Shown piece by piece: positions 32,302 through 38,865 of a stretch of 43,891 nt of DNA (positions within the stretch are counted from its first letter, which is position 1; every line of letters begins with the position of its first letter). Origin of the DNA: Deltaproteobacteria bacterium RIFOXYD12_FULL_56_24 (lineage in GTDB: Bacteria > Desulfobacterota > Desulfobulbia > Desulfobulbales > Desulfurivibrionaceae); contig MGTD01000023.1 of NCBI GenBank assembly GCA_001799285.1, positions 1 to 43,891 of the forward strand, read 5' to 3'. The position numbers were made by a program, and so were the translations under genes. The notes under the pieces are model-generated. The model saw only the letters and a program-made list of their open reading frames with translations, searched no databases and was not told the DNA's origin.

Positions 32302-33669
32302 TCAGCCCTCCAACTCGTATTTCTTGATTTTGCGCCAGAGGGAGACCCGGTCGATACCCAGGGATTGGGCCGCCAAGCTCTTGTTGTCCCCATGTTCCTT
32401 CAGCACCCACTCGATATAAGCCCGCTCCTGATCGGCCAGGCTAGGAATTCCGCCGCTTTTCCGGCGAAAGGTCTGGAAACAGGCGCCGCGCAGATCCTCC
32501 GGCAGATGGCAAACCTTAATGGTGTCGCCGCCGGCCAGAGCCACCCCGCGTTCGATGATGTTTTCAAGCTCCCGTACATTGCCCGGAAAATCGTAGCGCA
32601 ACAGAATATCCACTACTTCCGGTTCGATCTCCCGCACCTCCTTGTGCATCAACACCCCGTATTTCCTGATAAAATGCTGAATCAAAAGGGGCAGATCGTC
32701 CTTACGCTCAGCCAGGGGCGGGATGTTGAGTGCCACCACGTTGATCCGGAAGAACAGATCTTGCCGGAAATGCCCCAGCTTTACCTCTTCATGCAGGTTC
32801 CGGTTGGTAGCAGCAAGAAAACGAACATTGACCTTTATCGGCGCAACTCCGCCCAGATGCATCACTTCTTTTTCCTGAATCACCCGGAGAAGCTTGACCT
32901 GCATGGCCGGTGACATCTCGGTGATCTCATCGAGAAAAAGGGTGCCGCCATCTGCCATCTCCACCAGCCCCTTCTTCATTTCCACCGCCCCGGTAAAAGC
33001 CCCCTTTTCGTGGCCGAAGAGTTCATTGGCCAGCAATTCCTCCTGAAAGGCCCCACAATTGACGGAAAGCAGCGGGCCGTTGCGGCGGTTGCTGCAGGCA
33101 TGGACAAAGCGAGCCAGCAATTCCTTGCCCGTGCCTGACTCCCCGCAGATCACGACATTGCTGTCCGAGGTGGCGACCTGGCTGGCCGTGGCCAGCAGTT
33201 TTTTCATTCCGGGATTGTCGGTGATAATCCGGGCTTCTCCCTGAAAGACCTTGAGGTGTTCCCGCAACCTGCTGTTTTCCCGCTTGAGTCTGGTCTTTTC
33301 CAGAGCTTCCCGCACCACTTTCCGAACCTCATCGAGCTTGTATGGCTTGGCAATATAATGGTAAGCCCCGCCCTTCATGGCCTCGATGGCGGAATCCACC
33401 GTGGCGTAGCCGGTGATCATTATCACCTCGGTGTCGGGATACAGCTCCCGGCTGCGCTGCAAAATCTGCATCCCGCCGACCTTTTCCATCTTCAGATCGG
33501 TCAGGACAAGGTCGAAGATATTCTCCTCCAGCAAATGCAGGGCCCGGGGACCGCTTTGGGAGGCGGTGACCGCGTAGCCCTCTTTCTGTAAAACATGCCT
33601 GAGGTTGTGCAGGGCTATTTCTTCGTCGTCAACGACCAAGATCCTTGCCGGATCGTCATTTGTAACCAT
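32302..33669 (-). CDS. Sigma-54-dependent response regulator (NtrC family)
   Basis: A 455-residue activator. The receiver (RILVVDDEE to about 125) has the phospho-acceptor Asp in [11 protein letters not shown]. The AAA+ domain shows Walker [16 protein letters not shown], the GAFTGA loop that contacts sigma-54, and Walker [11 protein letters not shown] Fis-type helix-turn-helix ends it ([20 protein letters not shown]). I start at 33669, since the frame upstream overlaps the kinase and has no family match. The kinase stop (33656) overlaps the start by 14 bases. It is divergent from the operon that has a sigma-54 promoter and GCAAC palindromes, its likely target. Confidence 0.95.
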
Positions 33670-35113
33670 GTTCCTGTTGCTCTCCTGGTAGCCAGATAAT
33701 AAAGGTGGTGCCAAGGCCGGGCCTGCTGTCCACGGTGATGCTTCCACCATGCCACTCGATTATGTCATGCACTATGAACAGCCCGAGGCCGGAGCCCTTG
33801 CCCACATCCTTGGTGGTGAAAAAAGGATCAAAGATCCTGGTTACGTGTTCCGCATCGATCCCCGGCCCGTCATCCTCGATGAGGATTTCCACCTCATCAA
33901 GTCCGGTGCCGCAGCCCGTGCCAAGGGCGGAAATCCAGATATGCCCACGTCCCTGCACTGCGTCGATCCCATTCTTGATCAAGTTGAGCAGCACCTGCTG
34001 CATCCGCTGTTTGTCAACGATAATAGAGAGATCCTCCGGAATGTCCACGGCGATGACCACTTCGCTTGGCGCGTGTCCCCGGATGAGCAAAATGGTTTCC
34101 TCCACCAGCTTTTGAAGAAACAACTTCTCCTTTCTAAATTCCTTGATCCGGGAAAATTCCAGCAGGGTCCGGACGATATCACGAGCCTTGTCCGCCTGGG
34201 TCTCTATCTGGCCGATGAGGTTTTTCTTGAACTCTATATTGTCCTCATCAATCTCCTCGCCCAAAATCTGGGCCGAGGTAGAGATGTTGGAGAGAGGGTT
34301 GTTCAACTCATGAGCCACCCCGGACAACAGGGTGCCCAACGCCGCCAATTTTTCCGATTGCACCAGCTGATGCTGGCGCATCTGCAATTCCCTGGTCATC
34401 CGGTTAAAGGCCGTAAGCAGTGAACGGATTTCCTGTTCCCCTTCGCCCACCGCGATCTCGACAAAATCGCCCTGGGAAATCCTCTTGGTATATCCCTCGA
34501 GAAGTTTCAGGGAATTCACCACTTTCCTTCCCAAAAGAGCGGCGATGGTCAGCGCGGAAACAAACAGACAGACTATGGAGAGAAGAAGAATCGTCTGGGT
34601 CGTTTTCAGGAGAGTCTTGATTTCCCTCTTGACTGCCTCACGGGTTTTCTCCCCGAACTCGGTAAGTTCCTTGCCAGAGGAACGAAGCTGCTCCTCCAGC
34701 TTTTCCTGGGTCACCCCGTTGCCACGATGATCCGGGCCAATCGCCAGGTAATAGGCATGGAGCTGCCCCATATGTCCATTGTAGTCCTCGATCACCCTGC
34801 CCAGCTGCTCCAGTTCCGCGCCGGAAACCGCCAAACGCATGGCCGCCTCGTTATTGGCAAAAATATCCCGGAGTTTCCCCCAGTAAAGCTGGTTTTCCTG
34901 AAAATCCTTTTCCTGGAGGTACAGAAAATAATTCTTTTCGAACCTGCGCAACTCAAGGGTCGTATTAAAAAAATCCTCGATGACCTCGCCGAAGGCGACC
35001 TGCTCTTCCACCCGCTTGACAACCCCATAGGTCAGAACCGCCGAGCCCACCGTAAGGGCGAGCAACAGGTAGAATCCATAGGTAATCTTCTTGCGGATAC
35101 CGAGGTGGAACAT
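33656..35113 (-). CDS. Sensor histidine kinase, membrane-bound
   Basis: A 485-residue kinase for the sigma-54 regulator. Two membrane helices (about 11-32 and 172-195) bracket a 140-residue extracytoplasmic helical domain; the NTTLELRRFEKNYFLYLQ start recalls helical-bimodular sensors. A HAMP linker follows, then the phospho-acceptor His in GVAHELNNPL, and an ATPase domain with NLIKNGIDAV (N box), DDGPGI (G1) and GKGSGLGLFI (G2). The sensed signal is unknown. The Usp and TauE genes suggest a stress or sulfur-oxyanion signal. Confidence 0.94.
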   Translation of the reverse strand: MFHLGIRKKITYGFYLLLALTVGSAVLTYGVVKRVEEQVAFGEVIEDFFNTTLELRRFEKNYFLYLQEKDFQENQLYWGKLRDIFANNEAAMRLAVSGAELEQLGRVIEDYNGHMGQLHAYYLAIGPDHRGNGVTQEKLEEQLRSSGKELTEFGEKTREAVKREIKTLLKTTQTILLLSIVCLFVSALTIAALLGRKVVNSLKLLEGYTKRISQGDFVEIAVGEGEQEIRSLLTAFNRMTRELQMRQHQLVQSEKLAALGTLLSGVAHELNNPLSNISTSAQILGEEIDEDNIEFKKNLIGQIETQADKARDIVRTLLEFSRIKEFRKEKLFLQKLVEETILLIRGHAPSEVVIAVDIPEDLSIIVDKQRMQQVLLNLIKNGIDAVQGRGHIWISALGTGCGTGLDEVEILIEDDGPGIDAEHVTRIFDPFFTTKDVGKGSGLGLFIVHDIIEWHGGSITVDSRPGLGTTFIIWLPGEQQEHGYK

Positions 35114-35364: not shown

Positions 35365-35380
35365 TGGCACGCTTGTTGCT
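35365..35380 (+). promoter_or_regulatory. Sigma-54 (-24/-12) promoter
   Basis: TGGCACG (35365-35371), N4, TTGCT (35376-35380): the consensus TGGCACG-N4-TTGCW without a mismatch. Transcription would start about 35392, some 60 bases before the first small gene. It needs the activator encoded next door. Confidence 0.9.
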
Positions 35381-35452: not shown

Positions 35453-35632
35453 ATGCACACCATTTTGAACCGAATCGATCGCCTGATGATGGCCATCACT
35501 TTTGCCGAGGCCAACGAGTCCGAACTGGCACGGGAATGCCTCGGGAACCAAAAACCGAAACAGAACAAACAGGCCGAGCAGACCATCCGGATACCAGACG
35601 GCCAGATTCTGCCGAACCAGACCACCCATTGA
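35453..35632 (+). CDS. Small protein with FAEAxE motif
   Basis: A 59-residue protein, easily missed because of its size. GAAGGAG lies seven bases before the ATG. After MHTILNRIDRLMM it has AITFAEANESELARECL, which matches the starts of the next two genes' proteins, then a basic, Gln/Lys-rich tail with no membrane segment. First gene after the sigma-54 promoter. Function unknown; the shared helix suggests a common docking partner. Confidence 0.7.
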   Translation: MHTILNRIDRLMMAITFAEANESELARECLGNQKPKQNKQAEQTIRIPDGQILPNQTTH

Positions 35633-35660
35633 ACCGAACACCCCGACCTTGGAACGACCC

Positions 35661-36188
35661 ATGAGCGCCCTGACGACGATGTTCAAAAAACTTGAAGAAG
35701 CCATGACCGCGGCGGCCTTTGCCGAGGCCGGCGAATTCGAGACGGCGCGCCAGTTCCTCACGACCAACAAGAATGCCCGCAAGCGGGTACTCCTGGGAAC
35801 CGACAAGCCGGAGATCGCGACCAGAACCATCAGCTACGCCCTGCATCTCTGCCAACGCCTCGGTGGCGGCCTGGAAATTTTCCACATGCTGCACCTGCCG
35901 GAAAACGAAACCGCTTCCGGGCTGGGTCTTGAAAAAGAACCCCTCGCCGCCCTGAACACCGCTCTGCAGGAAAAGGGCGTGGTCTATCAACCGATCAGCG
36001 GGCAGGGCTGCCTGGCGGATGAGGTGCTCCGTCATGCCGGTACCCGACGGGATATCCTCTGCGTTGTCTTCGATGTGCTGGAGCCGGACGGCGCGGGCTG
36101 CCGCAAGGCAAAAGAAAACATGATTGCCAAATTTAAGGCCCTGCACTGCCCTGTCGTGATGTACGCAGGATCATCGGGCAGGGCCTGA
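35661..36188 (+). CDS. FAEAxE-motif protein with a Usp-like domain
   Basis: A 175-residue cytoplasmic protein. The N-terminal helix has MTAAAFAEAGEFETARQFL. From about residue 40 (RKRVLLGTDKPEIATRTISY) it looks like a universal-stress-type Rossmann fold with a parallel sheet, ending HCPVVMYAGSS. The ATP motif Gx2Gx9G(S/T) of true Usp proteins is missing, so nucleotide binding is unlikely. Second gene of the sigma-54 operon. Confidence 0.7.
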   Translation: MSALTTMFKKLEEAMTAAAFAEAGEFETARQFLTTNKNARKRVLLGTDKPEIATRTISYALHLCQRLGGGLEIFHMLHLPENETASGLGLEKEPLAALNTALQEKGVVYQPISGQGCLADEVLRHAGTRRDILCVVFDVLEPDGAGCRKAKENMIAKFKALHCPVVMYAGSSGRA

Positions 36189-36232
36189 CATCCATAACTA
36201 ATTACTAATTTCATATCAACAAGGGAGAAAAA

Positions 36233-36580
36233 ATGGCCATCACCACCTTTGACAAAAACATGTCGGCTGTCGCCTTTGCCGAGGCAGGCGAATACGACAC
36301 CGCCAGCCAGATCCTGGGCGAAAACACAAAAAAGCAGGCCGGCAAATCCCCGGCTCCGGCAGTAAAACGCAAGCCCTACCTGAAAACCGTCACTTTCGGA
36401 GCGATGTCGATTTCCGCCTACGTCCTGCTCTTCACCAACGAAAAGCTGGTCACCGAGGTCTTCACCATGGGCGGCTGGCGCTGGGTGTACCCGGTAGGGG
36501 CAGCATTCTTCTTTTCCTTCATCCACGGGGCCTTTGCCAGCAACCTGCTGAGCGCCCTTGGTCTGGAAGCAAAAAAATAA
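36233..36580 (+). CDS. Membrane protein with N-terminal FAEAxE motif
   Basis: A 115-residue protein. The N-terminus has MSAVAFAEAGEYDTASQIL, then a Lys/Pro-rich link and two membrane helices (TFGAMSISAYVLLFTNEK; VYPVGAAFFFSFIHGAF). GGAG lies seven bases before the ATG. The shared helix now faces the cytoplasm from a membrane anchor, which suggests it recruits a partner to the membrane near the TauE permease. I do not recognise the family. Confidence 0.7.
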   Translation: MAITTFDKNMSAVAFAEAGEYDTASQILGENTKKQAGKSPAPAVKRKPYLKTVTFGAMSISAYVLLFTNEKLVTEVFTMGGWRWVYPVGAAFFFSFIHGAFASNLLSALGLEAKK

Positions 36581-36674: not shown

Positions 36675-38015
36675 ATGAAGAAGTTATTAATTATCCTCAT
36701 GTTCGCCCTTGCTCCCCTGTCCCTGTTCGCCAACTCGGCCCTGGCCGCCGGCGACGGGCCGTCCAAGGATATGCTCAAGGGCATTATTACCGAAGTGAAC
36801 GCGGCGGAGCGCACCATCGTCTTCCAGAAGGATGACACCAAGGAACTCATCATCCTGGCCATGGGCGAGAAGATGCAGCCCGATGACATGAAAATGAACC
36901 AGAAGGTGCTGATCAATCTGGACAAACATGCCGCCGGTGACAATGTGATGAAGGATATCTCCATCATGTTCATTGATATGAGCGTCAGCAAACTCCTGGC
37001 CCTGCTGGTTATCGGCGCGGTGGGCGGCTTGCTCTCCGGCTTCATCGGCTCAGGCGGCGCCTTTGTCATGACCCCGGCCATGATGTCCCTGGGCGTGCCC
37101 GGCGCGGTGGCGGTGGCCAGCAACATGTGCCACAAGTTCCCCAAGGCCATGGTCGGCGCCTACAAGCGCTGGAAATACGGCCAGGCGGATATCAAGCTCG
37201 GTCTGGTTATGGCCGTCACCGCCGTCATCGGCGTGCAGATCGGGATCAAGATCCAAAAATATATCCTGAACCAATTCGGCGGCGCAGGCTCCAACCTCTA
37301 TATCAGCGCGGTTTTCATGGTTGTCCTGGTTTTTGTCGGCGGCTACGTGTTTTATGATGCCTGGAAACTCGCCAAGGGCGGCGGCAAAGAAACCGTGAGC
37401 AAGCTGGCTGTTGCCATGCAGAAAATCAACCTCCCCCCAATGATGCACTTCAAAACCGCCAAGGTGACCATCTCCGCTTGGATCACCATCCCGGTCGGCC
37501 TGCTCACCGGCATGCTCGCCGCCACCATCGCGGTGGGCGGCTTCGTCGGCGTCCCCGGCATGATCTATGTCATCGGCGCCTCCGCCGTGGTGGCCAGCGC
37601 CACCGAGTTGATCATCGCCTTTGTCATGGGCGCCTGGGGTTCGGTGCAATGGGGTCTTTCCGGCCTGATCGATATCCGCCTCGCCCTGCTGCTCCTGGCC
37701 ACCTCCCTGATCGGCGTCCAACTCGGCGCCCTGGGCACCACCTATGTCAAGGACTACATCATCAAGGTGGTGATGGCCACTACCATGCTCATCGTCGCGG
37801 TCAGCCGCGGGGTAAAGATTCCCGGCTACCTCATCGATCTTGATCTGATGAGTCCCATTGGCGAGGGCACTATTGCCCTGCTCGAAGGCATCAGCTTCTG
37901 GTCCCTGGTGCTCGCCTTGGGTTCAGCCGCTCTCATCATCATCGTGGCCATGGTCAAGGGGATGACCGCCGACCGCCGCAGCAAAAGTGTCCTTGCGGGA
38001 GTAAATCATGGCTAA
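36675..38015 (+). CDS. TauE/SafE-family permease with an N-terminal extracytoplasmic domain
   Basis: A 446-residue inner-membrane protein. A signal peptide (1-24) leads to a soluble beta domain (about 30-95; GIITEVNAAERTIVFQKDD). The permease follows with eight or so helices in two repeats, each with a Gly-rich start (LLSGFIGSGGAFVMTPAMM and AATIAVGGFVGVPGMIYV). TauE/SafE proteins export sulfite, sulfoacetate or related anions. The extra domain is not in simple members and may sense or bind substrate. It ends eight bases inside the Usp gene. Confidence 0.88.
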   Translation: MKKLLIILMFALAPLSLFANSALAAGDGPSKDMLKGIITEVNAAERTIVFQKDDTKELIILAMGEKMQPDDMKMNQKVLINLDKHAAGDNVMKDISIMFIDMSVSKLLALLVIGAVGGLLSGFIGSGGAFVMTPAMMSLGVPGAVAVASNMCHKFPKAMVGAYKRWKYGQADIKLGLVMAVTAVIGVQIGIKIQKYILNQFGGAGSNLYISAVFMVVLVFVGGYVFYDAWKLAKGGGKETVSKLAVAMQKINLPPMMHFKTAKVTISAWITIPVGLLTGMLAATIAVGGFVGVPGMIYVIGASAVVASATELIIAFVMGAWGSVQWGLSGLIDIRLALLLLATSLIGVQLGALGTTYVKDYIIKVVMATTMLIVAVSRGVKIPGYLIDLDLMSPIGEGTIALLEGISFWSLVLALGSAALIIIVAMVKGMTADRRSKSVLAGVNHG

Positions 38016-38865
38016 ATACCGGAAGATCCTCGTTGCCTACGACGGCTCCCCCTCGGCCCAAAATGCCCTTTCCCTGGCCAGCCAGCTGGCCAGGGAGGAC
38101 AAGAGCTGGATCAAGGTGCTGGCCGTAGTGCCGCCCTACCAGGGAGACCTGGAGCTCATCGGGGTTTCGGAGATCAAGGAGGCCATCACCGGACCAGGCC
38201 AGGAGCTGCTGGCCGAAGCCCGGCAACTGGCGGACCGCGAAGGGGTTCACATCCTGACCAATCTAGAACAGGGTGAGCCCTACGAGCAGATCGTCCATGT
38301 CGCCGAAGAGGAAAACTGCGATCTGATTATCATGGGCCGCCGAGGCAAGGGCAAGGTGGAACGGGCCCTCATCGGCAGCGTCACCGCCCGGGTCATCGGA
38401 CATACCGCCAAGGATGTCCTGGTTATCCCGGAAAACGGCAAACTCTCCTGGGAAAATATCCTGCTGGCCACGGACGGCTCGCCCTGCTGCGATAACGCCC
38501 TGGCAAGGGCTTTGGAGATAGCCCAGGAACGGAAAGCCAAACTCAACGCTGTTTCCGTAGTTTACACCAATGACGAATTTTATGCAGTTGGCCAGGCAGT
38601 GATGAAAGAACTTTACCAGGAAGCAGACAAGGTTCTGGACAAGGTCCGCAAATGGGCCGGGGATCTCGGGGTTCAGGCGGAGCTGTTCGTGCGGGATGGC
38701 GAACCCCATCAGGCCATTACCGACCTGGCTGCGGAAATCTCCGCCAGCCTCATCGTCATGGGCTCCCATGGCCGCAAAGGCTTAACCCGCCTGCTCATGG
38801 GCAGCGTAACCGAACGGGTCATCGGTTATGCGGATTGCCCGGTATTAGTCTGCCACCTGTCGTAA
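38008..38865 (+). CDS. Tandem-domain universal stress protein
   Basis: A 285-residue protein with two Usp domains (about 1-140 and 148-285). Both keep the ATP motif: GRRGKGKVERALIGSVTARV and GSHGRKGLTRLLMGSVTERV. The second is the closer match. Its ATG overlaps the TauE stop by eight bases, so the two are coupled, likely as the cytoplasmic regulator of the permease. It is the last gene of the operon, before repeat R3 and a terminator. Confidence 0.92.
   Translation: MAKYRKILVAYDGSPSAQNALSLASQLAREDKSWIKVLAVVPPYQGDLELIGVSEIKEAITGPGQELLAEARQLADREGVHILTNLEQGEPYEQIVHVAEEENCDLIIMGRRGKGKVERALIGSVTARVIGHTAKDVLVIPENGKLSWENILLATDGSPCCDNALARALEIAQERKAKLNAVSVVYTNDEFYAVGQAVMKELYQEADKVLDKVRKWAGDLGVQAELFVRDGEPHQAITDLAAEISASLIVMGSHGRKGLTRLLMGSVTERVIGYADCPVLVCHLS

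Follow-up and report, generated by a model that had tools for sequence, protein, structure and literature searches.

A 24-residue FAEAGE module, a predicted hairpin, shared by unrelated proteins of transporter-linked regulatory operons

In the genome of Deltaproteobacteria bacterium RIFOXYD12_FULL_56_24, three adjacent genes encode otherwise different proteins that share a 24-residue module with the core FAExGE near their N-termini. The module is real and widespread, and lies outside the family libraries that we searched. On balance, and with modest confidence, we infer both docking and a partner: the predicted hairpin of this module would assemble transporter-linked regulatory proteins.

A shared module in three successive proteins

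The three genes lie side by side on the plus strand of the window (the whole stretch of DNA that was analysed, 43,891 nucleotides). The first, orfA (35453-35632; 59 amino acids), carries a FAEAGE-type copy (RIDRLMMAITFAEANESELARECL; 35471-35542, plus strand) that is followed by a tail in which 9 of 29 residues are glutamine or lysine. This copy was matched at E=2.5e-19 by profile A1, in which the copy itself was included, and at 3.3e-10 by profile A4. The second, orfB (35661-36188, starting with the ATG at 35661; 175 amino acids), has a copy at 35688-35759 on the plus strand (KLEEAMTAAAFAEAGEFETARQFL), and then a Usp-like alpha/beta domain (residues 37-172; 35769-36176, plus strand). In orfC (36233-36580; 115 amino acids), the third copy (TFDKNMSAVAFAEAGEYDTASQIL; 36245-36316, plus strand) is followed by two predicted membrane helices, which correspond to hydrophobic segments at about residues 49-68 and 84-111. 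A first-pass annotation of the window had reported the pattern FAEA[GN]Exx[LT]A in these three successive proteins, together with their different continuations, and we found the open reading frames, the sequences and the three continuations to be as it described. Across all six frames, the pattern matches the window three times, always in these genes, against 4e-5 matches expected from composition.

The same annotation spoke of a 'FAEAxE' helix. The motif is real, but the conserved unit is longer and comprises 24 residues, x[FLIW][ED]xx[MF]xA[AIV][TA]FAEAGExx[TE]A[RK]xxL. Counting from the phenylalanine as position 0, conservation among 172 unique copies is 94% for A-3, 90% for F0, 100% for A1, 92% for E2, 86% for G4 and 94% for A9, and motif residues F20, A21, E22 and A29 are among the eight invariant columns of an alignment of 17 orfB members.

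Hosts of the module include tiny basic proteins, a two-helix membrane protein, Usp-like proteins, receiver and pseudo-receiver proteins, and proteins with two or three copies that end in a FLxxVGLxGVRxxYGV-type tail. The motif is C-terminal in receiver and pseudo-receiver hosts; in Usp-like hosts it is N-terminal or inserted within the domain (L122 and L127). We count this modular N-terminal, C-terminal or Usp-inserted placement on unrelated hosts in favour of docking.

No model in Pfam or NCBIfam covers the module, and neither orfA nor orfC matched either library at E<=1. A profile search of the PDB returned two antitoxin entries (E 0.5-0.65), which we judged to be chance matches, and a text match for the string FAEAGE found nothing in the literature searched, which included papers on Desulfovibrio and on Lon. 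The suggestion that the motif may be a new domain is thus supported: the motif recurs on six or more types of host, in several phyla and beside similar gene neighbours, without a Pfam or NCBIfam model.

Several hosts have further features. Many small motif proteins (for example, at L092, L122, L127, L250 and L255) have a conserved basic C-terminal tail, RPxLRV or RPRVYKT, which may be a second docking signal; in the genus of the window, the small motif protein ends differently, in NQTAH. Two PEP-synthase-like open reading frames from Nitrospirota, with one internal FAEAGE copy each, look like fusions (L154:4610-7315 and L245:3697-5799, plus strand). Two others have a transposase-like start and a two-motif protein as their C-terminal end (L252:7049-8572, plus strand; L253:7920-9440, minus strand), perhaps because of an insertion upstream that is read in frame. 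The TSUP permeases at L083:8258-9340 (minus strand) and L102:7530-8672 (plus strand) have an N-terminal extension that weakly resembles the motif (AEYLLEVATLAEAGSYE); this resemblance (VATLAEAG) is very weak (E=16), and we treat a fusion of motif and transporter as a lead.

Predicted fold

In the AF2 model of orfB, which has moderate confidence (mean pLDDT 72; 17 sequences), helices at residues 3-22 and 26-34, which hold the motif, precede the Usp domain. The model of a two-motif protein, also of moderate confidence (mean pLDDT 67; 13 sequences), contains two hairpins, with helices at residues 2-18 and 22-28 and at 35-52 and 56-64. Both models therefore predict, with moderate confidence, an antiparallel helical hairpin of the length found in TPR proteins. 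Residues 37-172 of orfB are predicted to adopt the Usp fold and align with the universal stress protein structure 1q77 over 120 residues (VIA-align; Z 10.2, rmsd 3.5), with the hairpin falling outside this fold. Unlike universal stress proteins (PF00582), orfB has this extra N-terminal hairpin, and its score with the Pfam Usp profile (E=4e-4, 21.4 bits) is below the cut-off of 24.

The module resembles TPR repeats, including TPR_4 (PF07721), in being a helix-turn-helix of similar length and in its spacing, small-x-x-large-x-x-x-G-x-x-x-x-A-x-x-x-large. TPR_4 matched 3 of 48 isolated motif peptides (best E 5.7e-4), and TPR chains dominate the list of PDB structures similar to the two-motif protein, but with Z of at most 3.6, which is little proof alone. 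No model reached its curated cut-off; in whole multi-motif proteins, TPR_4 scored at most 16.7 bits against 27. Whereas TPR proteins build a superhelix from a tandem array of at least three repeats, the module is usually a single isolated copy, with two or three in a few hosts and never more than three, and its FAE core is strongly conserved. From these models and comparisons, we describe the module as a TPR-like hairpin rather than as a member of the TPR family. The proposal that the motif recruits a common partner in the manner of docking peptides fits the modularity and the clustering; in its predicted structure, the module resembles a small folded hairpin of TPR type more than a disordered peptide.

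Distribution across genomes and phyla

A search of the 3.04-Mb host genome with the orfB segment found six places, in the window cluster and in one other cluster, at C41. A seven-copy profile recovered seven copies in the same two clusters. C41 encodes a small two-copy protein and a pair of receiver-type proteins in which the copy is C-terminal, and the neighbours of these genes include a Fis-type HTH gene, kinases and a TSUP permease.

The first profile matched 28 of 38 close relatives, and a 48-row profile found matches in 69 of 394 genomes from across the phylum. According to the first-pass annotation, its reading would fail if the motif proved to be a common helix that is not enriched around operons of this kind; 325 of these 394 genomes have no match. 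When GTDB species genomes were scanned blind with a DNA pattern, at least 118 stretches were found, and among those listed the full module is present in 115 of 118, most with more copies in adjacent genes. Taxa among the stretches listed include Nitrospirota, Thermodesulfobacteriales, the isolate Thermodesulfatator autotrophicus, Thiotrichaceae, Magnetococcales, Latescibacterota, Melioribacteraceae/Ignavibacteriaceae and actinobacterial metagenome-assembled genomes. Pattern matches at L136, L163 and L233 were set aside as chance.

This wide distribution of full modules rules out both a local duplication and a common helix. The motif is rich in alanine and glutamate, as expected if alanine-rich amphipathic helices merely resembled one another by coincidence; yet the modules recovered by the blind scan, and the excess of pattern matches in the window over expectation, led us to reject chance similarity, which we regard as extremely improbable.

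Operon and gene neighbourhood

Upstream of orfA, at 35365-35380 on the plus strand, is a predicted sigma-54 promoter, TGGCACG-CTTG-TTGCT (TGGCACGCTTGTTGCT), that agrees with the consensus at 12 of 12 positions and is the sole site in the window with at least 11 of 12. Across 84 motif clusters, 33 have a strong sigma-54 site (score >=10) upstream, against 0.8 expected from shuffles. Downstream of orfC on the plus strand are a TSUP (TauE/SafE) permease (36675-38015; PF01925, E=1.3e-34, 120.4 bits against a cut-off of 32.6) and a tandem Usp protein with two Usp domains (38008-38865; E=6.5e-66, two stretches). Pfam identifies two divergent genes on the minus strand, a sensor histidine kinase (33656-35113; HAMP, HisKA and HATPase_c) and an NtrC-type sigma-54 response regulator (32302-33750; REC, AAA+ and Fis HTH), the real start of which probably lies downstream of the one listed.

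We examined the context of 65 clusters, from 61 loci and the window. Within 5 kb, 63 of the 65 have two-component genes and 47 have a transporter of the TSUP, DASS or NhaD type; at least two motif genes are adjacent in 46, and each cluster is confined to one strand. In 20 such genomes there are about 138 TSUP genes in 58.7 Mb (about 2.35 per Mb), and at this density one would be expected in about 3% of 12-kb spans; TSUP genes are present in 31 of the 65 clusters (48%), about 17-fold more, which is the operon enrichment that a common helix would lack. Because the clusters were chosen from the best matches and related genomes are not independent, these counts are descriptive and carry no p-value. 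Outside the phylum, two-component genes were present in 34 and a transporter in 25 of 40 pieces of up to 8 kb each. In many loci, a CitMHS/DASS permease with TrkA_C domains (L122:8794-10596, L129:6978-8780) replaces the TSUP permease, and at L127 and L129 it is followed by a gene for an NhaD-like antiporter.

The hairpin might instead be a stabilising cap or a self-dimerisation element that has spread by domain shuffling among neighbouring genes, without docking between proteins. A TPR-like hairpin is able to pack on itself, and single-copy receiver proteins occur without other motif proteins; however, the hosts are very different and their gene neighbourhoods are nonetheless similar, the tiny motif proteins have almost nothing else to cap, and E2 is conserved at 92% at what appears, from our mapping, to be a TPR-consensus position where residues tend to vary and to be exposed. 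We therefore consider this explanation unlikely.

Several genomes have a single copy of the motif, and in the one that we inspected (genus g70) it is on a receiver protein. Pairing between different motif proteins therefore cannot be universal, and we retained docking onto a common partner. In its narrower form, the hairpin would bind one shared partner that lacks the motif, most simply the sensor kinase or a short kinase-like companion. Of the 65 clusters, 55 include a kinase, and all of the single-motif receiver loci L078, L108, L110, L249 and L258 have kinase genes; against this, the kinase types vary between types of locus and no common extra domain was identified among them, which leaves the narrower form possible and somewhat doubtful.

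A REC-Lon protease as companion

A hybrid protease with REC, AAA and Lon parts is encoded divergently from many motif clusters (for example, L098:5388-7403, minus strand; relatives include L092:2498-4516, minus strand), with one per genome where present. It raises the idea that the motif is a recognition tag (a degron or adaptor) for this protease, so that receiver phosphorylation would switch the degradation of tagged regulators. A gene for a REC-Lon protein of 665-825 amino acids lies within 5 kb of 18 of the 65 clusters (22 were labelled by HMM, four of them doubtful), and Pfam confirmed the REC-AAA-Lon_C domain order for one protein. Full-length REC-Lon occurs in 12 of 26 motif genomes, with 10 of the 12 genes no further than about 6 kb from motif genes, and in the fitness data described in passages of PMC10102598, DVU3303-3305 act together. 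However, the other 14 motif genomes, including that of the window, have just Lon proteins without a matching N-terminal part, and a REC-Lon gene is present in 7 of 26 motif-negative genomes. In the six REC-Lon loci from motif-negative genomes that we inspected, no motif was recognisable; these loci and genomes also weigh against the docking explanation. A REC-Lon degron was rejected as a general rule owing to this absence from 14 of 26 motif genomes, and the tag explanation seems to us quite improbable. These counts make REC-Lon a frequent companion and not a defining partner.

Related loci in Desulfovibrio and loci without the motif

According to the passages on these genes in Rajeev et al. 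2011 (PMC3333781), DVU3303 (a Lon-type response regulator), DVU3304 and DVU3305 form a three-component system that regulates DVU3298-3302. Passages of a 2023 study (PMC10102598) describe a chlorate fitness phenotype shared by DVU3303-3305 and linked to the anion transporter DVU3299, as well as a molybdate fitness phenotype for DVU0539-0545. The passages on DVU3298-3305 in both papers make no mention of a shared motif. As described there, the DVU3298-3305 locus of Desulfovibrio vulgaris Hildenborough encodes a REC-Lon, a kinase, a sigma-54 regulator, Usp-type and hypothetical proteins and an anion transporter, as at motif loci; by contrast, the genome of the window has no REC-Lon. Among relatives with this layout from one family, which the locus layout suggests is the Desulfovibrio family, L266 has clear motif copies, and those of L265 and L273 are weak or diverged. 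By the gene content given in the published passages, DVU0539-0545 resembles the window in having a divergent kinase and regulator, Usp proteins, a transporter and a small membrane protein.

Similar operons also occur where the motif is absent. In L267, L268 and L272, from three species within a single family, one in-frame open reading frame joins a Usp-like domain to a membrane domain like that of orfC (orfC profile E 1e-14 to 6e-17). This fusion, seen in that family only, would fit a covalent linkage that replaces docking; a ribosome-binding site and an ATG are kept at the junction, so a separate orfC-like product is possible. L269-L271 lack the small motif protein, and the FAE residues are gone from their Usp relative. 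Fusion and loss represent few events, and we treat them as leads only.

A possible route to control of anion transport

In the mechanism that we propose, each FAEAGE unit would be a single TPR-like helical hairpin acting in assembly; within an operon under sigma-54 and two-component control, it would be carried by a small basic protein, by a Usp-like protein, by a membrane anchor or by proteins with a receiver domain. The hairpin proteins would bind one another or a single common partner, close to the co-encoded TSUP or DASS anion transporter and the sensor kinase, and this hairpin-based association may tune transport after translation. The analysis itself shows the module with its modular placement and operon context, a predicted fold and a sigma-54 promoter sequence; pairing would be either homotypic or with a common partner, and transporter activity would be the output. 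In a 2018 comparative study (PMC5840216), TSUP and DASS proteins count as putative transporters for sulfate in sulfate reducers. A more ambitious reading, which we find plausible and still fall short of favouring, is a new docking code, in which one type of hairpin on sensor, receiver, membrane-anchor and protease-linked proteins would build a post-translational complex on sulfate or oxyanion transporters in sulfur-metabolising bacteria of several phyla.

How sulfate reducers control the uptake of anions is poorly understood, and the small proteins of these operons lack an assigned function; a shared module would tie them into one system. It provides a search handle with which similar systems can be found in new genomes, and it suggests a mechanism behind the known phenotypes with chlorate and molybdate that can be tested in Desulfovibrio vulgaris.
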